From the IMG/VR virus record IMGVR_UViG_3300026097_000123, positions 1 to 21,504 of that record: 21,504 bases of DNA; one strand, written 5' to 3'. The translations under genes and the position numbers were made by a program. Under the pieces are notes generated by a model. The model did not search any database. It had not been told where the DNA came from and saw only the letters and a list, made by a program, of their open reading frames with translations. The DNA is from a virus. How positions within the stretch are numbered: position 1 is the stretch's first letter; each line of letters starts with the position of its first letter. Positions 1-14,370 of the stretch are shown here, piece by piece.

Positions 1-214
1 TAGAAGAATTGCACGAACCGTCGTCGTTCATAGGACTAGGCACACAGACAAACACAGCCTCGCATGACATTAAATCATTATAGGAATGTCTGGTATTTTT
101 ACTAGAATCTGTATCTAAAGTTTTAATATTGAATGCTGAAAAATTGTACGACTCAAGCACAGCATTTCCTACATATCCTAGACCTACAATTCCTATAGAT
201 GATTTAAATTTCAT
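1..214 (-). CDS. UDP-glucose/GDP-mannose dehydrogenase-like protein, N-terminal fragment
   Basis: Partial gene that starts at ATG 214 and runs off the left edge; 71 codons are visible and open to the edge. The N-terminus is a Rossmann NAD-binding fold with the glycine-rich motif GIVGLGYVG at residues 8-16. A second hallmark, VFVCVPSP followed by MNDDG, lies near residue 55-65. This pair is typical of the UDP-glucose/GDP-mannose dehydrogenase family, which oxidises the C6 hydroxyl of a nucleotide sugar to a uronic acid using two NAD. The start overlaps the stop of the glycosyltransferase-like gene as ATGA, so the two are probably translationally coupled and may act on the same sugar pathway. 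The catalytic cysteine and the sugar-binding domain lie outside the window, so the substrate and completeness are unknown. Confidence 0.8.
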   Translation of the reverse strand, partial: MKFKSSIGIVGLGYVGNAVLESYNFSAFNIKTLDTDSSKNTRHSYNDLMSCEAVFVCVPSPMNDDGSCNSS

Positions 215-1278
215 TTAATATTTTCCAATAAATGTTTGCAAGTAAAATAATTTTCTTTTAGATATGTTACCTGTTTGTTAAGGCAAGGAAGAAATTTCTC
301 ATAGTTTGACATCAATTCCATTATTTTTTTAATAAGATACGGACGATATCTTTCGTACATACTGAAGTTTTCAGTCCATTCACTGGGATACTTAAACTTA
401 TCAAATGCCATCTCTATATAACTTAGTCTATCAGGAACCAAAGGTAGTGCGTCAACAAGAGCACCTTCATACCAACTGATACCTAAGGTCTCTTGTAGAT
501 TGGCACTGAATACCATTTTTGCTTCACCCAGTAAATTATGATACTCGTTCTTTGTGAGATTATGTTCTTGACATATGACAAATTCATATTGTGGCAAATG
601 TTCTTTGAGATCCCTAAAAATTTCAACCTGCTTTTCTGTAGCAATGCGGTGAGGAAAAAGAATTAAATCACGCTTGGTCATATTTCGATACATGCTAAAC
701 GTATCTTCCATGTAATCCATAGGCCATCCTGTACGAATTATTTTATCAGAACCGACACAGGATTCTCGTGCCCACGGATCCATAAACACATCGGCAAACA
801 TGTCGATGTGAAAATCACTAGCAAAATAGTTATGATCCACGGCACCAAAGAAACTGCGTTCAGCATCTCGAACCCACGGAGTATTACCTATCAGCCTTCC
901 TAAAAAGTCAGCAGGATCATAACTACCTGCATGCCAAAGAGCATGTATTACTACTTTGATACCTAGCAGTTCACTCATGTACTTGAGGTTAATAATACCA
1001 GGATGCCAAGCATCAGCAAATAAAAAGTGATCACCCGGTTTTACTCGACCTGCACAAAACAATCGACTCATTTGTTCGATTTGTCCTGCTTTGTAGATAT
1101 TAGTCCCTCCAAAGTTTAAGAAGGCCCCGGGTGTAGTAGCACTGGGAATATCTGTCGGACCCTCAATTACCTGAACATCAAGTCCTGTCTTATTGAGAAT
1201 TTTAGGAAAGTGTTCCTTCCACTCGCAGGTATAGCGTGTAGGAACACTTTCTAAATCAACGAGAAACAGATTGGTCAT
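211..1278 (-). CDS. Glycosyltransferase-like protein (GT-B type)
   Basis: A 355-residue protein from ATG 1278; the open frame extends to 1401, but that would overlap the upstream gene much more deeply. A GGAA stretch lies a few bases before the chosen ATG. The C-terminal third (about residues 263-290) has ETLGISWYEGAL followed by LPLVPDRLSY. This resembles the nucleotide-sugar-binding E...G...EG...P.V region of GT-B glycosyltransferases (group 1 style). FPHRIATEKQ before it is compatible with the start of the second Rossmann domain. The acceptor (DNA base, virion protein or cell-surface glycan) cannot be told from sequence. It overlaps the dehydrogenase-like gene by ATGA, which suggests a shared nucleotide-sugar role. 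The family fold is fairly well supported; the activity is inferred. Confidence 0.6.
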   Translation of the reverse strand: MTNLFLVDLESVPTRYTCEWKEHFPKILNKTGLDVQVIEGPTDIPSATTPGAFLNFGGTNIYKAGQIEQMSRLFCAGRVKPGDHFLFADAWHPGIINLKYMSELLGIKVVIHALWHAGSYDPADFLGRLIGNTPWVRDAERSFFGAVDHNYFASDFHIDMFADVFMDPWARESCVGSDKIIRTGWPMDYMEDTFSMYRNMTKRDLILFPHRIATEKQVEIFRDLKEHLPQYEFVICQEHNLTKNEYHNLLGEAKMVFSANLQETLGISWYEGALVDALPLVPDRLSYIEMAFDKFKYPSEWTENFSMYERYRPYLIKKIMELMSNYEKFLPCLNKQVTYLKENYFTCKHLLENIK

Positions 1279-1530: not shown

Positions 1531-1911
1531 TTAAGGTTTATATTCAATGATACCGTCAGACTCTCCGTCTTCTGATACTACTATCTCATAATACCTGTCA
1601 CTTCCGTAATTGGGTATTAAGTGATTCTCTAATATATCAGTTGCAATCATTTCACAACTCATATGATTCATTTTACTATCTTTGATATGTGATTGTAAAG
1701 CCCATTTAACAAGAAAGAACTCCAATTCACGATCAAGATGTGTTACTGAAATTTTAACTTCTACTTTGAACATGTGTCGATGTTCATTTTCTAAAAATTT
1801 GATGCGTGGATCGATAGTTCCAGCATTTGGATAATAATGGTATCCTTCAAACTCTGTTCGTACTTTGATATAGGTATTTGTAGCGGGCCTAACGTCTTGT
1901 TTAATATTCAT
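1531..1911 (-). CDS. QueD-like (6-pyruvoyl-tetrahydropterin synthase superfamily) T-fold protein
   Basis: A 126-residue protein. The order of motifs matches the QueD/PTPS family: an N-terminal strand ending in a His (EFEGYHYYP), then HRHMFKVEV in the place of the zinc-binding HGH motif, then RELEFFLVKWAL in the place of the DF..LK helix. SCEMIATDIL stands in the place of PTxExLA, and a C-terminal EIVVSEDG strand follows. QueD makes 6-carboxy-tetrahydropterin on the way to preQ0 and other 7-deazaguanines. Here the usual catalytic Cys before the HxH motif seems to be replaced, and the LDH motif is not evident. It may therefore be a diverged paralogue with a different reaction. Its start overlaps the upstream stop (ATGA). 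A DpdA-like gene about 1.3 kb upstream makes a deazaguanine link plausible. Confidence 0.6.
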   Translation of the reverse strand: MNIKQDVRPATNTYIKVRTEFEGYHYYPNAGTIDPRIKFLENEHRHMFKVEVKISVTHLDRELEFFLVKWALQSHIKDSKMNHMSCEMIATDILENHLIPNYGSDRYYEIVVSEDGESDGIIEYKP

Positions 1912-2288
1912 CGCATTAATTCCATTGTAAGTAATTTACCTAGTCGTTCATTAAAGTCATCATCTTCTTGAATTATGTAACTGTTTCGCTTGTCTTCGCC
2001 GTAGGGTGATTTCGGGTCAAGGGGATGTCTGAACGTAACAATGAATCCGCCATTTAGTTTTTTAACGTCAATCCTTAATCCGTCGTTAAGTCCGTGAGGA
2101 TCACCGCCAATGACTTCAGATGATTCTAACTTTTCATGTCCAGGAGATAACCCATTCTGCTGAAATTCTTGTTCTTCAGCAACTTGATCCAGAAGATCTT
2201 CATGATATTTCCAATCGGGATTTTCATATCCACCACGTGCCCATGCCCATCGTGCCTTTCTATAAAACCATTTATCAAACCACTTCAT
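1908..2288 (-). CDS. Conserved hypothetical protein, function unknown
   Basis: A 126-residue protein with no recognised domain. The N-terminus is rich in Trp, Lys and Arg (MKWFDKWFYRKARWAWARGG), followed by an acidic stretch. The C-terminal half is predicted to be strand-rich (IDVKKLNGGFIVTFRHP) and ends in a helix with EDDDFNERLGKLL. It overlaps both neighbours as ATGA, so it sits in a tightly coupled set with the 180-residue gene upstream and the QueD-like gene downstream. That arrangement suggests a common pathway or simultaneous early expression. Confidence 0.65.
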   Translation of the reverse strand: MKWFDKWFYRKARWAWARGGYENPDWKYHEDLLDQVAEEQEFQQNGLSPGHEKLESSEVIGGDPHGLNDGLRIDVKKLNGGFIVTFRHPLDPKSPYGEDKRNSYIIQEDDDFNERLGKLLTMELMR

Positions 2289-2827
2289 TTAATTACCTCA
2301 TCATTGCCATATTGATCCCAACTGGTAAATGTGTCTCTAGACATCAAGTCATGAAGACTATGTGTCCAAATACCAGGATTAGTAGCGTCAAAGTCTTTAT
2401 CGTCAATCTTGACCATAGTGTTGTAATTCCAAAGGCGAATAAATGGAATTGGCACACGAATCTGCGGAATAAAATTATTCCATTCGCATAGTCCTCCGTC
2501 GTTAAATTCTTCGACTTGATTTAAGGGAATATCTAAACTGCAAAGATGACCTTTGTTAAGAAAGTATATGATCATCTCTTCCCATAATCGATGTTCGTCG
2601 TTGTTCGCAGGATTATAACTGTGATTAGCACCAAAGAAAATATGACGAATATTATTTTTTTTATCTAATAGACTATCTCGTTGCGTTAACATATATTCGA
2701 TTGTATTAACGTTATGGATACCTACAACAAATAATGTTTTCATTCCGTATGCAGGGGTACGTTCTATCTCTTTACCGACAAAGAAAGTAACGGTGTCTTG
2801 TGTGCCTGATGTGTAATCTCTTTTCAT
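2285..2827 (-). CDS. Conserved hypothetical protein in the deazaguanine-associated cluster
   Basis: A 180-residue protein from ATG 2827. A GTG nine bases further upstream is also open, but the AAAGGTGG ribosome-binding site at 2833-2840 would overlap it and sits correctly, 5 nt before ATG 2827. The start overlaps the stop of the small Cys-rich gene (ATGA). I do not recognise the family. It shows alternating hydrophobic strands (TLFVVGIH, HIFFGANHSY, FIPQIRVPIP, NTMVKIDDKDF) and a conserved-looking TNPGIW segment, compatible with an alpha/beta fold. There is no radical-SAM CxxxCxxC motif, so it is not an ordinary QueE. It is the first gene after the promoter at 2857-2885. Confidence 0.65.
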   Translation of the reverse strand: MKRDYTSGTQDTVTFFVGKEIERTPAYGMKTLFVVGIHNVNTIEYMLTQRDSLLDKKNNIRHIFFGANHSYNPANNDEHRLWEEMIIYFLNKGHLCSLDIPLNQVEEFNDGGLCEWNNFIPQIRVPIPFIRLWNYNTMVKIDDKDFDATNPGIWTHSLHDLMSRDTFTSWDQYGNDEVIK

Positions 2828-2982
2828 CTCAACCACCTTTTTGCTCTAATAAACAAATTATAGATTCTTACCTTAACCTTGTCAAGTGTAATTTCATCTA
2901 ATGTAGGCATACGATGCGGACAACGACCTTGTTGCCAATCGCAGTCACTTTTTATAGGTTGACAACATGTTTTACATTTCAT
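2824..2982 (-). CDS. Small Cys-rich (possible zinc-knuckle) protein, 52 aa
   Basis: A short gene of 52 residues. Its ATG at 2982 overlaps the upstream stop as TAATG and its own TGA overlaps the next ATG as ATGA, which supports it as a real translated gene. The N-terminal half carries CKTCC at residues 3-7, C14 in SDCDW and C21 in GRCPHR, giving five Cys plus a His. This could form one small zinc site. The C-terminal half is a basic helix (KVKVRIYNLFIRAKRW). A consensus promoter for the next gene lies inside its 3' half. Function unknown. Confidence 0.65.
   Translation of the reverse strand: MKCKTCCQPIKSDCDWQQGRCPHRMPTLDEITLDKVKVRIYNLFIRAKRWLR
2857..2885 (-). promoter_or_regulatory. Consensus sigma-70 promoter (TTGACA, 17-nt spacer, TATAAT)
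   Basis: On the minus strand, TTGACA (2885-2880) is followed by a 17-nt spacer (2879-2863) and TATAAT (2862-2857), a full match to the bacterial sigma-70 consensus. The start of transcription would fall near 2850, giving a leader of about 23 nt before ATG 2827 that contains the AAAGGTGG ribosome-binding site. It lies inside the coding region of the 52-residue gene. It would serve the 180-residue gene and the genes beyond it. It is called from sequence match only. Confidence 0.65.
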
Positions 2983-3170
2983 TACCAATTACTCACATCA
3001 GTTATATCATATTCGTGATTGCTAATTTTAAAATCAAACTTGATTATAGTGCTAGGGCCGACACCATTGGTTGATTCTTGCACAATTTCAAATTGATCAA
3101 TATTATCAAAGTTTTTAAATATTTTTTGAATACTTTCGTATTGAATTCTAGTTAAAGTAACACTACTCAT
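2982..3170 (-). CDS. Small hypothetical protein, 62 aa
   Basis: A 62-residue protein that overlaps the end of the DpdA-like gene by 8 nt and the next small gene by one base (TAATG). The composition is that of a soluble alpha/beta mini-domain: an N-terminal helix (TRIQYESIQKIFKNF) followed by beta strands (STIIKFDFKI, HEYDITDV). It ends in a Trp. No family recognised. Position between dpdA-like and the Cys-rich gene suggests coexpression from the clamp promoter. Confidence 0.6.
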   Translation of the reverse strand: MSSVTLTRIQYESIQKIFKNFDNIDQFEIVQESTNGVGPSTIIKFDFKISNHEYDITDVSNW

Positions 3171-4713
3171 CTTTAATACTCGCTTCTAGTTTGTCAAGTT
3201 CTGCGTCTTCTCTAACATCAGTCCATGGAGTTATAACATTTCCATCTTCGTCCACTTCATCGAAGTGACTATTAAATGTGTTTGTAACACCACCTCGAAG
3301 TCTAGACCCTTCTAGATTCTGTAAGAAACCTAATCTTTCTGCTTCTTTAATCATTTCAAATGCAGATTCCTTTGTTTCACAGTTAAACAATTCTTCTGCA
3401 AATCGATCAAAGTATAGAATGTTGCGCGGTACCCAAACACTTTTCTCGTCACTTTTATCTGCTTCTTTAACTTTTCTCCACTCTCTCCAGTCTGGACGAC
3501 CCTTAGCACATTCAATATCCATTAGGTTGTTAGCACGTTGAACAGCAACAATATGACAGTAGACGTTATGCGCCATCATAAGAGCATATGAAAAACTGTC
3601 CCATGATGTGCGACCTTCTTTACCAATCTTGTTTAACATGCCCGGCTTGTACCAACAAATATCACCAATGTCTAATCTACGACCAATTTCTGATTCAAAT
3701 GGAAATGGAACTTCGTGTCGTTGGCTAAGTTCTTTTGTGTCTGGGGCTTTGTCCATAATAACACTCCAACGTTTTGCATTGTGTTGTGCGTTGGTGTAGA
3801 CAAGTCCGTGCGCTGTTGCGATAAATGGCGAGGCACAGTCAAAAGACACCGTGAAGTTTTCATTAATATGTTTCCTTATCTGTCGTTGAATACTTGTGAG
3901 ATAGCATGACCAATCTAATTGTGCAGTGCCAAGAAAGTGCATCCAATCTTTGTTATCTAACATACCATCAAACCGCATGGTAATTAAACGTCGTAGAGTA
4001 ATAGGCATCTTGCACATGTTAGCACCGCCCATTGCCCAACCTTCGCAAGCTTTGTCTCCCCATACAGCAGGATCGCTAAACTCTTTTACACCTTGATACC
4101 ACGTTTCAGCAGTATCCCAGTTACTTCCCTGTAAGACATTTAAAAATTTTGTTTTACCTTGTCTGCGAGTGAGCCAATACTCGTTGTTATATCTTGTCTT
4201 ATCGAGACAGTCACCAAAAGATTTTAATCCAGTCTTAGGACTGTGAATATGATCACATGCCCACGTTGGAACATCTAAAAGCATTGACCAATCTGCTGTA
4301 GCTTCTAACCAATTGAGAATGTTGTCACGCACCTTGTTAGCAGCGGCACCTTCGAAGTTTAACCAATCAAATTTTAGAATACCTTTACCTACCTGATATC
4401 CACCACTGTCACCTAGTATCATAGTATCAGAACGATTTCTTTGTTGCACCATAGCGTCACTGGTAGTCTTACTAAGATCTAATTGTGCGTGTCCTGCTGA
4501 ATACAAGCCATATTTGTAGTAGAAGTACCCATCTTCTGAGTTAAGAAAGTTCATGCCTTCAATATCACGATCAAACTCTTGTGGTATGCGATCTTTAGGT
4601 ATAAACTCACCTTCTCTCTGTTTTCCTATGTATGTGGAATAAAATCCACTTATTGCCGGAAGATATACGGCATAGTCTTTCTGTAATGGTGTTAGATCAA
4701 CTGGTTTTTTCAT
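3163..4713 (-). CDS. dpdA: DpdA/TGT-like deazaguanine transglycosylase
   Basis: A 516-residue protein with the order of tRNA-guanine transglycosylase (TGT) active-site motifs. GDSGGYQ (D102) matches the TGT DSGGFQ motif, and LLDVP (D147) follows. NVLQG (residues 192-196) is in the place of the substrate-binding VQGG, and WAMGGANM (G229-G230) in the place of GGLA. HFLGTAQ is followed by FDCASP (D292) in the place of the FDC nucleophile segment. TGTs swap guanine for a 7-deazaguanine in tRNA; the phage and bacterial DpdA branch does this in DNA. The usual C-terminal TGT zinc cluster (CxCxxC...H) is not seen, which fits DpdA better than a tRNA enzyme. The gene is 3 nt from the sliding clamp gene and in the same unit as a QueD-like gene, so DNA modification during replication is a reasonable inference. 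The exact DpdA subgroup and the base inserted are unknown. Confidence 0.72.
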   Translation of the reverse strand: MKKPVDLTPLQKDYAVYLPAISGFYSTYIGKQREGEFIPKDRIPQEFDRDIEGMNFLNSEDGYFYYKYGLYSAGHAQLDLSKTTSDAMVQQRNRSDTMILGDSGGYQVGKGILKFDWLNFEGAAANKVRDNILNWLEATADWSMLLDVPTWACDHIHSPKTGLKSFGDCLDKTRYNNEYWLTRRQGKTKFLNVLQGSNWDTAETWYQGVKEFSDPAVWGDKACEGWAMGGANMCKMPITLRRLITMRFDGMLDNKDWMHFLGTAQLDWSCYLTSIQRQIRKHINENFTVSFDCASPFIATAHGLVYTNAQHNAKRWSVIMDKAPDTKELSQRHEVPFPFESEIGRRLDIGDICWYKPGMLNKIGKEGRTSWDSFSYALMMAHNVYCHIVAVQRANNLMDIECAKGRPDWREWRKVKEADKSDEKSVWVPRNILYFDRFAEELFNCETKESAFEMIKEAERLGFLQNLEGSRLRGGVTNTFNSHFDEVDEDGNVITPWTDVREDAELDKLEASIKDE

Positions 4714-4716
4714 ATT

Positions 4717-5454
4717 TTAAACAGCCTGTGCAGGAATAATGTATTTGTAAGTAGCCAATCCGCTGTCGAGCGTGATTTGAATTGCACCTTCATTACTTAA
4801 TGACATTTTAGTGTTGTTAACATCGGCAATCTTAAGTATAGCAAGGATAGGAGCAACAGGCCAAGTCCACCCTCGGTCTAGTTTACCACTTACGTCTTGT
4901 GCAAACACAAACTCTCCGCCGTGTGTTGAAGCATCGCCAAAGATAAACTTCAATTGATTGTTGTCTGTCTTGGCAAGAAATGTCGGATGCTCGCTGTTTG
5001 CACCTGCTTGAAAGTTAAATCGCTGTACAGCAGCAACACTAGGTTCAATTTCAACATCCCAGTTAGCGCCACGGAACTTGACTGTTTTCATTTTTTCGTT
5101 AATGATGTCTGAGTTCATAAAACGATAGTCGTTTTTAAAATCACCATCTTTATTTTCAAAATGAATGCCTACAGGAATATCGGCACCATTTCGATCTGCT
5201 GATACAATAGTGATTTTAGCATCTTCTTTGTATTCAGGACCATCTAACAAATACTTGAGTTTTTGTAGTTGCGGCATACCAAATACACCAACCATGTCTG
5301 GATATGGATTTGCTGTCTCGGCAGTCATGATAACACTACGATCATCAGCCATTGAAAACACTTCTGTTTTAGCAGCTTCGCCTGTGATTTTCACCGTAGT
5401 AAGAAACCCTAGATTTTGTGTATGGCTTACGATATCCATTAAAATGTCTTGCAT
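4717..5454 (-). CDS. 45: Sliding clamp, T4 gp45-like DNA polymerase processivity factor
   Basis: A 245-residue protein, close to the length of T4 gp45 (228). The regular alternation of short strands with polar turns fits a clamp fold. Recognisable segments are FGMPQLQKLKYLL followed by PEY (the IYDLNxFL-like element), the GIHFEN/DFKNDYRFM region, and a C-terminal strand pair around AIQITLDSG and ATYKYII. It lies just downstream of the gp43-type polymerase, whose C-terminus carries a clamp-binding-like LFDF peptide. It has its own promoter (5478-5506) and a strong AAGGAG ribosome-binding site 8 nt before ATG, in keeping with high early expression. The call rests on distant similarity plus context. 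Confidence 0.65.
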   Translation of the reverse strand: MQDILMDIVSHTQNLGFLTTVKITGEAAKTEVFSMADDRSVIMTAETANPYPDMVGVFGMPQLQKLKYLLDGPEYKEDAKITIVSADRNGADIPVGIHFENKDGDFKNDYRFMNSDIINEKMKTVKFRGANWDVEIEPSVAAVQRFNFQAGANSEHPTFLAKTDNNQLKFIFGDASTHGGEFVFAQDVSGKLDRGWTWPVAPILAILKIADVNNTKMSLSNEGAIQITLDSGLATYKYIIPAQAV

Positions 5455-5513: not shown

Positions 5514-8177
5514 TTATTCAAAGTCAAACAACTTGTTGAAATTGTTGTCGCTTCTTGTACTGTTTAAATCCCAATCCAGTACACCGATTAAGTTGCCAAG
5601 TTTTTCATCAATGACTGCATTTTCCATAGCAGCATCGTCAAAAGGTAAATCTTTGAACCACTGAGGTAACCGAGGTTCGTCGACTGGATAAGCAACACTG
5701 GTATATCCCAGCGGATTGCCTTTTATTTTGCAAACAATGACTTTCATCCCGTCAACAATCTGAATAGAGTATTTGTCATCCATCATTCGTTTAAGCGTAT
5801 TCCAATTGATACTGGCTCGAACATGACCAGGCATATTGGCTTTACCTTGTCGTTTTTCTTTGGCCTGATATTCAGTGATGTTATTAGCTCGTTTAGGTGA
5901 GCCTTTTTCCCATCCAGGTCGTATTTTAAACTCTGTTCGAAAGTCTGTGATATAAGTCAATACTTCTTCCTTTCCAACACCATTAAGAACTCTTGTTAGA
6001 ACCTCTGTGAGAAAATCTTGAATTACAACAGGAGTATCACTACGCTTGAGATCCAGCCCCATAGCCTTGATTTTTCCAGGTTTGCCGTTGACATCTTGCC
6101 GTTTACCTTCTTTATCATACATCAGAACAGCATATCGTTTTTTGGTAATAAACAACCCTTTGACACCTACAATCTCTCGTCCTGCTTTGATAACCTCGCC
6201 TCGTGATTTTGGCACATGAAATGCATCTTGCATGAACTTGACAAATGTGCCATTAACTTCATTGCTAATAGTATCGTAGAGATCAACTACGCTTTCTTTG
6301 CCCCACGGAATAGTTCCTTTGTCAATATCTTTCTTCAGGGTAGTATATGCCGAAAAATAGCATGAATCAGTATCGCCGTATATAATGCTTTTACCGATGT
6401 GATCATATTCGCCTGTAATTATTTCATTGACTTTTGCTGCCATGTGCTTGGCAATAGCACGTCCAGTCAGTGTTGTTGATTGTCCAATGCGATTATCAAA
6501 GAATCTACAACCAGGATTGAGAATAGCACCATATAAACTGTTCAAGTTAATTTTCTTAACTAATTGTCGTTTATCCCAGTATTCTTCTTCTACATCATTG
6601 CCGGCGGCAATACACTCTCTAAGTTTTGCCTGCATCTCTTTTCTTTCAGCATACCAGCGCTTTAATAAACCAGGGATAATTCCTTCTTTTTCATAAGTGA
6701 AAATAGTACCATTGGCACTAAGAATCCAAGGTTGGTTGCTATCAAAAAGTAAGTCATGTGCTTGAGCAGCACTGAGTGTATCACTTCCTCCTTCTTCCCA
6801 GTCAATAGTAAGTTCTCTACCAACTTCTCTGTTCATGACAGCAGTGTATTCTAGAGATCCAAAAATACCTTCCCAGGCAGCAGCAAAACTTTTTCCTTTG
6901 CCCATAATCGATTCGATGTGTGCTTTTGTACCGTCTTGCCGAAGTTGCCCTATGATTGTTTCCGGCCCCATGTTAAGAGCCCGAATCGCACTGGGATATA
7001 GCGAGTTGATATCAAGCGATCCAATCCATTCGTGTATTCCTTTCTTAGGATATGCAACATAAGCACCTGCTGCCGGTTCTGAACCAGGTTCTCTCTTTAT
7101 CCGATTGGGTACAATCATTCCTCGACGATGAGATTCGTTAATAATTGCCTGTTCAGTCACTGCAACAGCGCCCATTGTAGTTTGTAGTAGCACGGTGTTT
7201 TCGTGTGCAATAGTATTAGCAAGATCTAAGAATCTAAGTTTCTTGTCTAGTTTATCAAGCAGTGCAGTGTCTTGTCTGTTATATTCAATAAACTTTCGAA
7301 AATCATTATTGTACAACTGATCTAGTGTGCCTTCGTATATAGTTTTAGTATCGCCTAGTTCGTATTCTGCAATAGCGTCAAGTCGATAACTATGTCGTTC
7401 TTCATATGTATACTTTCGATAAAGTTCAAGGCTGTCAAGGTGAACTCTACCAATTAAGTCGTAGGTAATTGCTTTCTTACCATAGCGTTCATATTCACGT
7501 TTTTTGGGATATTGATTAAACAAACAAAGACGTTTAGTATCCTCTTTGCTTAACACTTTGATAATTCGATTGACCGTGTACGGAATATCAAAACCTTCTG
7601 AGTTCCAGCCACTTAGTACATCAGCATCTTCAACTAAATCTAAAAATGTGTTCAGCATGTCTGCTTCATTGTCGAACAGCATAGTATTAGGAAAATCCGC
7701 CACCTGCTGTTCTGCCTCAGCCATAGAAATAGTTTTCGGAGGAATCGCCAAACAAACCAACGTGTCTAACCACTGTAAATGCACAGCAACCGCAGTGATA
7801 GGCATAAATGCATCTTCTGGACTAGCATAGCCTCTTTCTGGATCAAAATCGACCTCAATATCAAAAAATGCTACGTTAAGTTTGGCTGGCTCTGAATTAA
7901 GATAATTGTCTTCTAAGCATCGATAAATTGGATTAATGTCGCTTTCGTAAAGTTGTTTGTTAGAATGTATTGCTAATTCTTTACGCATCTCTTTAATGTT
8001 TTTACAGGTGACACGAGTCAGCGGTTCACCCTTCATAGACTGATACTTGCCTTTAGGATCCTTGTAATAGAAAAGATGCCTGGCAGCGTAGTCTTTATAT
8101 TGTCTTTTGCCTTTCTCGTTTCTTTCAACGATGAGAATTTTATCCTCATCTCGATTATAAAATGCGTCGACGTACAA
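5514..8177 (-). CDS. 43: DNA polymerase, family B (T4 gp43-like)
   Basis: Replicative polymerase with 3'-5' proofreading exonuclease, 887 residues from a TTG start (T4 gp43: 898). Exonuclease motifs: FFDIEVD (D106, E108), NSEGFDIPY (D197) and YNRQD (D303). Polymerase motifs: motif A DINSLYPS (D389), motif B KKINLNSLYG (about 541-550), motif C YGDTDS (600-605), then KKRYAVLM. All catalytic acids are present. The C-terminus ends NKLFDFE, like the clamp-binding tail of the T4/RB69 enzymes. Start choice: the frame is open to a GTG at 8207, but AAGGAG (8184-8189) lies exactly 6 nt before TTG 8177, and the T4 family N-terminus (MKEFYI...) aligns with LYVDAF. It lies downstream of the membrane-protein gene, and the clamp gene follows. 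Confidence 0.95.
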   Translation of the reverse strand: MYVDAFYNRDEDKILIVERNEKGKRQYKDYAARHLFYYKDPKGKYQSMKGEPLTRVTCKNIKEMRKELAIHSNKQLYESDINPIYRCLEDNYLNSEPAKLNVAFFDIEVDFDPERGYASPEDAFMPITAVAVHLQWLDTLVCLAIPPKTISMAEAEQQVADFPNTMLFDNEADMLNTFLDLVEDADVLSGWNSEGFDIPYTVNRIIKVLSKEDTKRLCLFNQYPKKREYERYGKKAITYDLIGRVHLDSLELYRKYTYEERHSYRLDAIAEYELGDTKTIYEGTLDQLYNNDFRKFIEYNRQDTALLDKLDKKLRFLDLANTIAHENTVLLQTTMGAVAVTEQAIINESHRRGMIVPNRIKREPGSEPAAGAYVAYPKKGIHEWIGSLDINSLYPSAIRALNMGPETIIGQLRQDGTKAHIESIMGKGKSFAAAWEGIFGSLEYTAVMNREVGRELTIDWEEGGSDTLSAAQAHDLLFDSNQPWILSANGTIFTYEKEGIIPGLLKRWYAERKEMQAKLRECIAAGNDVEEEYWDKRQLVKKINLNSLYGAILNPGCRFFDNRIGQSTTLTGRAIAKHMAAKVNEIITGEYDHIGKSIIYGDTDSCYFSAYTTLKKDIDKGTIPWGKESVVDLYDTISNEVNGTFVKFMQDAFHVPKSRGEVIKAGREIVGVKGLFITKKRYAVLMYDKEGKRQDVNGKPGKIKAMGLDLKRSDTPVVIQDFLTEVLTRVLNGVGKEEVLTYITDFRTEFKIRPGWEKGSPKRANNITEYQAKEKRQGKANMPGHVRASINWNTLKRMMDDKYSIQIVDGMKVIVCKIKGNPLGYTSVAYPVDEPRLPQWFKDLPFDDAAMENAVIDEKLGNLIGVLDWDLNSTRSDNNFNKLFDFE

Positions 8178-8183
8178 TTTTTT

Positions 8184-8189
8184 CTCCTT
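8184..8189 (-). promoter_or_regulatory. Ribosome-binding site that supports a TTG start for the polymerase
   Basis: Minus-strand AAGGAG at 8189-8184 is a full Shine-Dalgarno core, six bases before TTG at 8177-8175. The alternative GTG at 8207 has only a weak AGGT upstream. The core would also be buried in codons 7-8 of the longer reading frame. Confidence 0.55.
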
Positions 8190-8246
8190 GTGCAATTTAC
8201 GGCTCACACATACCTATTATGAAGTTTATGGCCCTTCCTGCCTTTC

Positions 8247-11293: not shown

Positions 11294-12355
11294 TTAATTA
11301 CTCACCGTTTCTTTTAGAGTAATTACACCGCAGGCTAATCTGTCTCCAGCATTACCAGTTTTGAGACTTTCGTCGTCGCCACCTTTGCCGAGGTCGTCTA
11401 CGTCACTGTGTACAACTATGGCACGACCGACTACACTGCGCTCTCCTGTAAGGTCTACGCGATCGGCAACAATACTAAAACTTGCAACGCCATCTTTATT
11501 GGCAGTGATGTTTCCAAGATCGCCAACGTGGCCCTTTTCTAAATCACCGTGATCTACACCGTCTGGATTATAATGACCGCCTGCACTTTCGCAACCGTTG
11601 CTTAAATCACCAAATTCGTGAATATGAAATCCATGCTTGCCCGGTTCTAGTCCGGTTATCTTACCAACTATCATAGTTGGACCATCTGCTTGTTGTTTGA
11701 GCAGAATAGTTCCTTTGACAGTGTCTGAGTGCTCTAGTACACATACTGCTGTAACTGTTTCTTCTGTTTCTGTAATCTTGTTTACGCTTTCACACTGACA
11801 ATTGCTTGCTTTGGTTCTAGGACAAGCATTGAGATAGTTTTCTTCTATATGATGCTTAATACCTAGAACATCGCCTAGCATGTTAAGGCTTGCTAGGTAT
11901 TTTTTTTGACTGGCATCTGCTTTTTCAGGATCCCATGAGCTTTTGTCTCCAGTAAAGTTCTCGTAGTTGTCAGCATATTTGACCATCATAGCCAAATGGT
12001 TACCACTAGATATAATTTTTTTAATGTTCTGTTCGTAGTTTAGACTCTTATCTTTAGTTAACAATCCCACTGCTTCAATAACTTGATCAGTAAAGTCTAG
12101 TTCTTTTAAATCGTCTAGGCCGGTATTTGTATCTTCCACAACGTCGTGTAAGAATGCAGTCTTTACAGCATCACTATTAAATTTATTTCCGAATATCTTA
12201 CGTCCAGTCAGTGCTACTGCTCTAGGGTGTGTCCAGTAAGGCAGTTTTCCATAAAGTTGATCACCGTGTGCTGATTTGATAAAATCAAGAGTTTTGGCTA
12301 TATTAAGCTCTTTAACAATAACATCGTCGGAAGAAATAAACTCAAAGAGATTCAT
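11294..12355 (-). CDS. Fusion: SpoT/MESH1-type HD hydrolase + Cu/Zn superoxide dismutase
   Basis: One 353-residue open frame with two domains. Residues ~15-170 are an HD domain like the (p)ppGpp hydrolases SpoT/MESH1: AH (H30), YWTHP (H43), FLHDVVEDT (H70, D71, E74, D75) and KYADN (D129) are all present. Residues ~200-350 are a Cu/Zn superoxide dismutase: [10 protein letters not shown] (H244, H246), AGGHYNP (H261), DHGD (H269), GHVGDLGN (H276, D279), [10 protein letters not shown] (H316). The disulphide Cys are C255 and C342. Ligand spacing follows the eukaryotic/bacterial enzyme almost exactly. A Cys-containing linker (C178, C186, C188) joins them. No signal peptide is present although bacterial SodC is normally exported. 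The start at 12355 overlaps the iscA-like stop (ATGA). The HD substrate is inferred; the SOD call is very secure. Confidence 0.88.
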
Positions 12356-12675
12356 ACTGAAAAACTGCTCCCACAACCACAACTGGTTTGAGCATTGGGA
12401 TTGCTGATACTAAAAGAAGACCCTATGATATCTTCTTTATAGTCAATTACTGCACCTGCTAGATACTGCATACTCATTGAATCTACAAGCACTTTGGTAT
12501 CACTTAACGGTATTTCAAAATCATCTTCTGATTGTTCGTCGTCAAATGTAAATCCATATTGAAAACCACTACAGCCACCACCTTGTACAAAGGTACGCAA
12601 TTTTAATTTAGGATTGCCTTCTTCTTGAAATAGTTCTATAATTTTAGATTTAGCAGATTCAGTGATTTCAATCAT
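12352..12675 (-). CDS. iscA: A-type Fe-S cluster carrier (IscA/ErpA/HesB family)
   Basis: A 107-residue protein of the usual family length. The three cluster-binding Cys are in place: C35 in GGGCSGFQY, and C99 and C101 in the C-terminal SCGCGSSF. These proteins hold and pass on [2Fe-2S] or [4Fe-4S] clusters to client enzymes. The N-terminus [12 protein letters not shown] is typical. An AAGGA ribosome-binding site lies 8 nt before ATG, within the end of the upstream gene. Its stop overlaps the start of the HD-SOD fusion, so the two should be made together. It could serve a phage or host Fe-S client under oxidative stress. Confidence 0.93.
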
Positions 12676-12676
12676 A

Positions 12677-14173
12677 TTATTTTCCTTGAGGGTTAACAGG
12701 TACTACTTTGTACTTACCTGTCCTAGGATCATAAACAGTTTTCTTTGGGCCCTGAGCAGATTTTTTCTTGACACTGGCAAGGGCCTGTTGGAACTCCGGC
12801 GAATCCATTTCACTGTTGTCACCCTCTCCTATGCCTTGTTGTCTTTTTCTTAATTGATTAGCAAGATTTTGTACATCAGTTTGAGCATCCGCCGACTTTT
12901 TTGTTTGTGATCGTAACCACTTCTGCCATGCTGCTCGTTTCTTTTCTTCTGACCAATCATCAGGAAACTTGGGAGGATTGACAGCAACACTTTCGTTGGC
13001 GGCTTTCTTGTTGCCTGTTTTAACATCTACTCCTTGTTTCTTGCGGAACTTGGCAACATTACCATTCTTACCATAATTGATGGCGTAGTCATCATCCTCT
13101 GGGTCCATGTTAGTTTCGACACCACTGGGACTAATGTGAGATTTACTTTCTTTAAAATTGCCAGCCCCTGCAATAATTTTGTCTAACTTAGCCTTGTCAG
13201 CAGGATTAATCTTCTTGCTTTGATCAATAACTTGTTTGACATCTTTTTCACCGTCAAGAACATCAATTAATGCTTGAATCATCTTCATAGCATTTTCACC
13301 ACGAGTGTTAGCAATGTCACGAATAGCAGCAGCCTGTTGATCTGTGATGTCTTGTTTGGTTCTGGTAGGCTGACCAATTGCCTTTACACTTCTAACACTG
13401 ACGCTATATTCTGTGGTCGGCTTGTCAGAAAATGCTGCTCGTGTTCTGGTAGAAGGTTCCACAATATAACTGCCAATCTGAATAGCAGTTTTTAAATCAT
13501 TAAAGTTGTTTTTGTAATGAACTTTTTTACCCTTACTTTCAATCCATTGCCAAGCATCGTCATACGATTGTTTGTCTTTGTATGCCACATGATCCTGTGG
13601 ATCTCTGTGGCGTCTTCCTGTTCTACCATCAGTCCAAGTTGTATTGTGACGCCAAATAGCATCACCGTTAGTTTGAAGTGCAATTTGATTTGCCATGTCT
13701 TTAGCGGTAGCAGCACGACCTGTAAATTCAGGCATTTCACCAGAATCTCTTTGTTTCATTCCAACATATTTGCTCATCAGGTCTACGATTCTACCAACTT
13801 TCATTATACTGCCTAATTTTACAGAGCTAGAAACATCAAAAGTACGTCCTGTAATTTTAGCCAATTGCTGTATTTGTTTTAGTTGTTCCGGAGTATAATC
13901 GTCCCACTGTGTTCCTTTAGAACTGTCTAATATTTTAGCAATCTGTTGTGAAGCACGATTCCGCTCTGCAAAATCCTTGCTAACTTCATAAACTTGAGAT
14001 TCACCTATCTGCTTTCCCTTGTGTTTAACTTCGCCACGTTTAGCAGCAGCCTTGCGATCCTTGTGTTGTCCAGCACCACTGGCAGTAACACCTGAATTTT
14101 TAGCCACAGGGTTTCTAGGCTTAGATTTCTGTGCTACTTTGGCTTCTACAATGATAAATTCTTTCGCTTTCAT
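12677..14173 (-). CDS. Large basic virion-type protein with capsid-targeting-like N-terminus
   Basis: A 498-residue protein from ATG 14173, which overlaps the upstream stop as ATGA; the frame is open further but into that gene. It starts [15 protein letters not shown], very close to the T4 internal-protein leader MKTYQEFIAEA, with IVE|A as a gp21-type cleavage site. The next ~50 residues are a basic stretch ([25 protein letters not shown]). The middle holds folded segments (about 75-300) with helices such as [20 protein letters not shown]. The rest is charged and low in complexity, ending in a Pro/Lys-rich tail. No enzyme motif is recognised. It is a candidate packaged internal protein; the evidence is the leader and composition only. 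Confidence 0.65.
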
Positions 14174-14370
14174 GCGGGTTTTTCTCCTGTAAGATATGGT
14201 TTTGAGAACCACAATCTAAACCACTCTTCTGTTCCTGGTTGTATATTTTTCTCTCGCTGTATCTTAGATTTCTCTGTTCCTGTGATACTGATGTTACTAC
14301 CTTCGTACGGACAATAACCTTTGAATTCAGTTAGACCTGCTAACTTTTTGATTTCGTCTAATTCGTTCAT
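14170..14370 (-). CDS. Small conserved hypothetical protein
   Basis: A 66-residue protein that overlaps both neighbours as ATGA. It begins MNELDEIKKLAGLTEFKGY and continues with GSNISITGTEKSKIQREKN, then PGTEEWFRLWFSKPYL. The second half looks strongly conserved (aromatic-rich EEWFRLWFSKPYLTGE). I know no function. The tight packing suggests it is cotranslated with the nucleotidylyltransferase upstream and the 498-residue protein downstream. Confidence 0.65.
   Translation of the reverse strand: MNELDEIKKLAGLTEFKGYCPYEGSNISITGTEKSKIQREKNIQPGTEEWFRLWFSKPYLTGEKPA

Follow-up and report, generated by a model that had tools for sequence, protein, structure and literature searches.

A viral operon linking a DpdA-like transglycosylase to a QueD-like protein and a glycosyltransferase suggests a sugar-bearing 7-deazaguanine in phage DNA

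The presence of 7-deazaguanines in DNA shields phage genomes from restriction, and the derivatives known from DNA all carry, to our knowledge, small groups at position 7. In phage 9g, the gene for DpdA (DpdA1) directly follows those for the polymerase and the clamp and is itself followed by folE, queD, gat-queC and queE. Gat-QueC is thus present, dG+ is made, and neither a glycosyltransferase nor a QueD-like gene was seen in the 50 kb that we examined. The DpdA2 protein of Vibrio phage nt-1 is encoded within a preQ0 cluster, and dPreQ0, dADG and dG+ are present in the DNA of this phage (PMC6884629). Here we describe an operon in a tailed-phage fragment of 21,504 bp, the complete IMG/VR record IMGVR_UViG_3300026097_000123 (the window), which encodes a DpdA-like guanine transglycosylase of 516 residues, a QueD-like protein and a glycosyltransferase. 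Unlike in the DpdA systems described so far, a glycosyltransferase nearly always accompanies the DpdA-like enzyme in this operon. An earlier note on this DNA had proposed the DpdA-like enzyme and the QueD-like gene but missed the glycosyltransferase gene, which alters the predicted product. We propose a pathway in which a base derived from 7-carboxy-7-deazaguanine (CDG) would be made without QueC, exchanged into DNA by the DpdA-like enzyme and decorated by the glycosyltransferase, and we put the probability of this pathway as a whole at roughly one half (about 0.52).

No Pfam, PHROG or NCBIfam model matched the 516-residue protein. An AlphaFold model, obtained with an alignment of 48 diverse relatives, had a predicted local distance difference test score (pLDDT) of 87 and a predicted template modelling score (pTM) of 0.85, and has the (beta/alpha) barrel fold of the DpdA/tRNA-guanine transglycosylase (TGT) superfamily. 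Among the matches listed by Foldseek against the PDB, 50 of 50 were TGTs (best E 1.6e-7), and VIA-align placed 302 residues of the model on the T. maritima TGT with a Z of 19.6 and a root-mean-square deviation of 4.7. Matches in a library of viral structures included a homologue of 596 residues (E 2e-28), which from its length is evidently the enzyme of Vibrio phage 2.275.O, the TGT of Achromobacter phage Motura, nt-1 DpdA2 (3.9e-8), and a 259-residue protein of Cellulophaga phage phiST, the same length as gp042. D102, D147 and D292 were conserved in 48/48 relatives, G230 in 46/48 and Q195 in 45/48, and G225 was nearly invariant. The two catalytic aspartates lie in DSGG and FD motifs, which follow one another in the expected order and have the D, QG and GG sites between them; the active-site arrangement read in the earlier note (D102 in DSGGYQ, GG at 229-230, D292 in FDCASP) was found at exactly these positions. 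We take D102, D147, D292, Q195 and the GG loop to match, by motif, D102, D156, D280, Q203 and the GLAVG loop of the Z. mobilis TGT.

The window protein did not match phrog_10773, the family of nt-1 DpdA2 (YP_008125322), which the enzymes of phages ACP17, X1 and BUCT-ZZ01 match at 1e-87 or better. Profile-profile comparison, however, aligned its catalytic core with that of DpdA2 (E 2.3e-6, probability 89%; 77% when four DpdA2 sequences were used). The two share the TGT fold, the order DSGG(Y/L)Q ... QG ... S(F/Y)D and the proximity of 7-deazaguanine synthesis genes, but belong to separate PHROGs and align over a core of only 190-200 residues (hhalign probability 77-89%), and the 516-residue window protein has a C-terminal part of its own. 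No profile-level similarity was detected between 9g DpdA and the window transglycosylase family. From the TGT fold, the active-site residues and the profile link to DpdA2 we therefore conclude that the protein is a DpdA-type TGT, nearest to phage DpdA2 by sequence, and that it forms a subfamily distinct from both DpdA2 and 9g DpdA. The original proposal of a DpdA-like transglycosylase is thereby borne out, and FolE and QueE are its neighbours in relatives.

Hundreds of relatives of the transglycosylase are present in viral contigs, and the occurrence of the family is far beyond chance. The enzyme of Vibrio phage 2.275.O belongs to the same subfamily (33% identity), but is encoded with QueC, QueF and YhhQ, and without a QueD-like gene or a glycosyltransferase. 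Cellulophaga phage phiST resembles the window in having FolE, QueD, QueE, a QueD-like protein, the TGT-fold gp042 and no annotated QueC; its TGT, however, has only 259 residues, and no glycosyltransferase was found nearby. Single-sequence patterns based on the 2.275.O and PA5oct enzymes retrieved no relatives. We also considered a clamp-binding motif at the C terminus of the transglycosylase, where there is merely a loosely conserved acidic/leucine tail, and no case could be made for it.

The QueD-like protein retains the zinc-site histidines H25, H44 and H46, matched to the QueD triad by motif, in 98/98 sequences of its family, but the catalytic Cys that precedes the HGH/HGY (HxH) motif in QueD is not present in these sequences. 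It did not match PF01242, and the similarity of its family profile to phage QueD was weak (hhalign probability 68-74%). PA5oct, Phosso, ACP17, X1 and BUCT-ZZ01 each encode a true QueD in addition to the QueD-like protein. Because the catalytic Cys is absent and the gene coexists with a real QueD, the protein is most likely a QueD paralogue with a different job on CDG, for which CDG decarboxylase or another CDG-modifying enzyme are candidate roles; the gene that the earlier note called QueD-like is thus not an ordinary QueD. Cui and colleagues reportedly predicted, in 2023, a CDG decarboxylase named DpdL, to which the QueD-like family may or may not correspond. The window QueD-like protein is 63-64% identical to the version in the Synechococcus phage BUCT-ZZ01 and just 33-43% identical to those of most close relatives, L037 and L075 being the exceptions, a pattern that would fit an in-place exchange of the gene. 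In Vibrio phage Bakedbeans (L086 8245-9396), a QueD-like domain is fused C-terminally to an uncharacterised domain of ~265 residues.

Gene linkage was assessed in 80 viral loci seeded with the transglycosylase and in a second, more divergent set. The order polB-clamp-TGT-P183-QueD-like-P80-P396, where P396 denotes the glycosyltransferase family, was near constant in the 80 loci and the same in the divergent set, and P183, the QueD-like gene and P396 were all present in 12 of the 13 non-redundant loci that had 6 kb or more of downstream sequence. As an independent test, the QueD-like protein alone was used as the seed and 80 loci were scored with profiles. A glycosyltransferase was found within 8 kb in 68 of these, the transglycosylase in 61, P183 in 55, FolE in 55, QueE in 21, QueD in 18 and QueC in none. 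Once QueD-like proteins more than 80% alike had been removed, 29 loci with enough downstream sequence remained, and a glycosyltransferase was present in 25 and FolE in 26. The glycosyltransferase and QueD-like genes shared a strand in 68/68 cases, with a median gap of 414 nt between them. Among 50,697 phage records, close homologues of the glycosyltransferase (at least 35% identity) were confined to the PA5oct group, Phosso and ACP17, all of which carry the QueD-like gene, and more distant homologues lie within the 7-deazaguanine clusters of X1 and BUCT-ZZ01. ACP17 encodes P183, DpdA2, the glycosyltransferase, the QueD-like protein and QueE in a row, a version of the module in which another DpdA takes the place of the window type.

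The P396 profile matched the proteins of Phosso, PA5oct, BUCT-ZZ01, ACP17 and X1 at E 1e-44 or better, and the homologues in X1 (8e-12) and BUCT-ZZ01 (5.5e-6) scored above threshold against Pfam Glycos_transf_1 (PF00534). An EX7E motif is conserved in the family, with E304 in 76/79 and E312 in 79/79 sequences (396-residue numbering), and the few weak PDB profile matches were mostly to GT4-type enzymes. Judged from these similarities, P396 is a GT-B, GT4-type glycosyltransferase. Glycosylation of a hydroxymethyl-pyrimidine was considered as its role and rejected as a general explanation: no thymidylate-synthase-type gene (PF00303) was found in the complete genomes of BUCT-ZZ01, ACP17 and X1, and the glycosyltransferase in these three carriers is therefore not explained by hydroxymethyl-pyrimidines from such an enzyme. 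The glycosyltransferase of the Xanthomonas phages PhiXhv sits in a glucosamine-type cluster and was judged unrelated to the module. In the literature searched, we found no published link between a glycosyltransferase and 7-deazaguanine DNA. A probable second GT4-type glycosyltransferase adjoins DpdA2 in BUCT-ZZ01 (L084 6367-7710), and this phage may attach two sugars.

The earlier note had asked whether folE, queC and queE occur elsewhere in the genome. The window ends before this region, but in relatives whose contigs extend further, FolE is found just past the corresponding edge (18/20 records), followed by a phosphoribosyltransferase whose nearest match is xanthine phosphoribosyltransferase (8.8e-9), with QueE (TIGR04349, 4e-13) after it; queC was not found beside the QueD-like gene in any of the 80 loci. 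The association with 7-deazaguanine synthesis genes that is seen for DpdA enzymes is thus present. Relatives also encode two further proteins between FolE and QueE, an HhH-GPD DNA glycosylase (L037 12153-12566; Pfam 4e-8) and a protein with a HIT domain (13948-14367).

In the proposed pathway, phage FolE and QueE, with a phage or host QueD, would convert GTP to CDG, and since there is no QueC, the pathway would stop short of preQ0. The QueD-like protein, presumably a zinc-binding T-fold protein, would then convert CDG, the most likely reaction being a decarboxylation that yields 7-deazaguanine. The DpdA-like enzyme would swap guanine in DNA for the CDG-derived base, with D292 acting as the covalent nucleophile and D102 serving as the acid/base, and the GT4-type glycosyltransferase would subsequently put a sugar on the modified base. 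The purine phosphoribosyltransferase of the cluster may salvage the guanine that is released. Modification of DNA by the DpdA-like enzyme appears highly probable to us, while glycosylation of the modified base, to which gene linkage points, has about an even chance. More tentatively, the phage DNA might carry a glycosylated 7-deazaguanine, with the sugar perhaps joined to C7 in a C-glycoside or linked to the 7-carboxylate in a glycosyl ester, and the modification might protect against restriction. We know of no description of glycosylated 7-deazaguanine as a class of base in DNA. The suggestion in the earlier note that the genome is modified while it is being copied was drawn from adjacency only and is not upheld, as base exchange acts on finished DNA. 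The order of polymerase, clamp and dpdA genes recurs in 9g and PA5oct, however, and co-expression of the transglycosylase with the replication genes is therefore plausible.

Several points weigh against the proposed pathway. There is no obvious oxygen acceptor for a sugar at C7 of 7-deazaguanine, and no published analysis of virion DNA for this lineage was found in the literature searched. The window glycosyltransferase itself gave sub-threshold Pfam matches, with none to PF00534, so that its assignment is indirect. Most contigs of the window clade do not encode a true QueD, which would therefore have to be supplied by the host or have been omitted from incomplete contigs. QueD-like genes without a glycosyltransferase nearby occur in phiST, RHph_I1_18 and D479 and in 4 of the 29 non-redundant contigs, and the glycosyltransferase must therefore be dispensable for some such pathways. 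The three phages would also fit with the insertion of an unglycosylated base, either 7-deazaguanine or CDG, the glycosyltransferase acting instead on another DNA modification, on a protein or on a cell-surface sugar; both bases have reportedly been detected in phage DNA by Cui and colleagues in 2023. We nevertheless consider this rather unlikely, given that the glycosyltransferase is part of the cluster in each of six separate arrangements (the window clade, PA5oct, Phosso, ACP17, X1 and BUCT-ZZ01), invariably on the strand of the QueD-like gene, and that three complete carriers have no thymidylate-synthase-type hydroxymethylase.

The lack of QueD in the window clade may also indicate that the QueD-like protein is an ordinary QueD, with a host QueC completing preQ0 and plain dPreQ0 or dG+ in the DNA as in known DpdA phages. 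In this clade, 12/14 contigs encode FolE and 13/14 are without a PF01242 QueD, so that QueD function is formally missing. This explanation is improbable in view of the absent catalytic Cys, the true QueD that coexists with the QueD-like gene in five phages, the absence of a nearby QueC from all 80 loci, and the QueC-bearing phage 2.275.O, which has no QueD-like gene. Since the fold is common to tRNA TGTs, the 516-residue protein could, in principle, act on host or phage tRNA. Its identity to tRNA TGTs is, however, ~14%, and the CxCxxC...H zinc cluster of those enzymes is not among the conserved Cys/His of the 48 relatives, in keeping with the earlier observation that an obvious zinc cluster is lacking. 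PF01702 matched neither the window protein nor its relatives, but the same model also misses 9g DpdA, and was therefore discarded as a test of TGT membership. The constant place of the gene by the polymerase and clamp, nt-1 DpdA2 among the phage relatives, and the finding of no tRNA genes in the window further argue against a tRNA substrate, which we regard as highly improbable.

The operon is widespread among viruses, being present in hundreds of contigs and several isolated phages, and predicts a bulky, sugar-bearing guanine analogue. If the proposed pathway is correct, its product would be the purine counterpart of the glucosylated hydroxymethylcytosine of T4. The proposed logic is that of the T-even glucosyltransferases, with an altered base first and a phage-added sugar second, but the T-even base is a pyrimidine made as a nucleotide, whereas here a guanine analogue would enter by base exchange. 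Cultivated carriers of the module exist, in which most of its genes are annotated just as hypothetical proteins; they include Sinorhizobium phage Phosso, Synechococcus phage BUCT-ZZ01 and Acidovorax phage ACP17, the first two of which have S. meliloti and S. elongatus PCC 7942, respectively, as laboratory hosts.

The genes on the minus strand run in the order family B DNA polymerase, presumed clamp, 516-residue transglycosylase, 62-residue open reading frame (ORF), P183, 126-residue ORF, QueD-like protein, P80 and 355-residue glycosyltransferase, just past which the record terminates (Table 1). The ORF coordinates given earlier for the transglycosylase, the QueD-like gene and the two ORFs between them were correct, as was the 3-nt gap that separates the transglycosylase gene from that of the presumed clamp. 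Several genes of the operon overlap by 4 to 23 nt, a pattern like that of translationally coupled genes. Purifying selection on the genes is strong (for the transglycosylase, non-synonymous pN 0.14 versus synonymous pS 0.85).

Table 1. Genes of the operon and adjoining replication genes in the window
Feature	Coordinates	Strand	Remarks
Family B DNA polymerase	5514..8207	minus	
Presumed sliding clamp	4717..5454	minus	phrog_12062; presumed from position; Phosso homologue annotated as DNA polymerase III sliding clamp beta
TGT-fold DpdA-like guanine transglycosylase, 516 aa	3163..4713	minus	D102, D147, Q195, G230, D292 conserved
62-aa ORF	2982..3170	minus	8-nt overlap with end of transglycosylase gene; kept in some relatives only
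P183, 183 aa	2285..2830	minus	conserved; fold unassigned
Small 126-aa ORF	1908..2288	minus	4-nt overlaps with P183 and QueD-like genes; poorly conserved
QueD-like T-fold protein, 126 aa	1531..1911	minus	phrog_17812; invariant H25, H44, H46; without catalytic Cys
P80, small conserved protein, 80 aa	1256..1498	minus	between QueD-like gene and glycosyltransferase
Predicted GT-B fold GT4-type glycosyltransferase	211..1278	minus	EX7E motif; ATG at 1278 is the probable start, the ORF as listed extends to 1401

The identification of a sliding clamp in the earlier note agrees with the position of the gene and the Phosso annotation, but Pfam and PDB profile searches gave no match in its support. Of the two unknown proteins that had been called conserved, P183 is well conserved, while the 126-residue ORF is not, being present in 15 loci. 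Searches of Pfam, PHROG and PDB profiles assigned neither a family nor a fold to P183, and when alignments of the TGT, the QueD-like protein, P183 and the clamp were used in sequence and profile searches of the PDB, no match was convincing. Among isolated phages, P183 homologues were confined to those that carry this module (the PA5oct group and ACP17). In ACP17 (L085 6210-6695), the homologue is annotated as a truncated hypothetical protein of 132 residues, where the actual ORF has 161.

Elsewhere in the window, a single ORF on the minus strand (11294-12382) has an HD domain at its N terminus (E 4e-4) and a Cu/Zn superoxide dismutase at its C terminus (E 2e-47), and is adjoined by a gene for an Fe-S cluster A-type carrier (12352-12675). 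Two relatives contain clusters of radical SAM proteins, with ~12 proteins at 60-82 kb of one contig (L066, G003) and ~5 at 1-9 kb of another (L060, G014); such clusters are unusual for a tailed phage.

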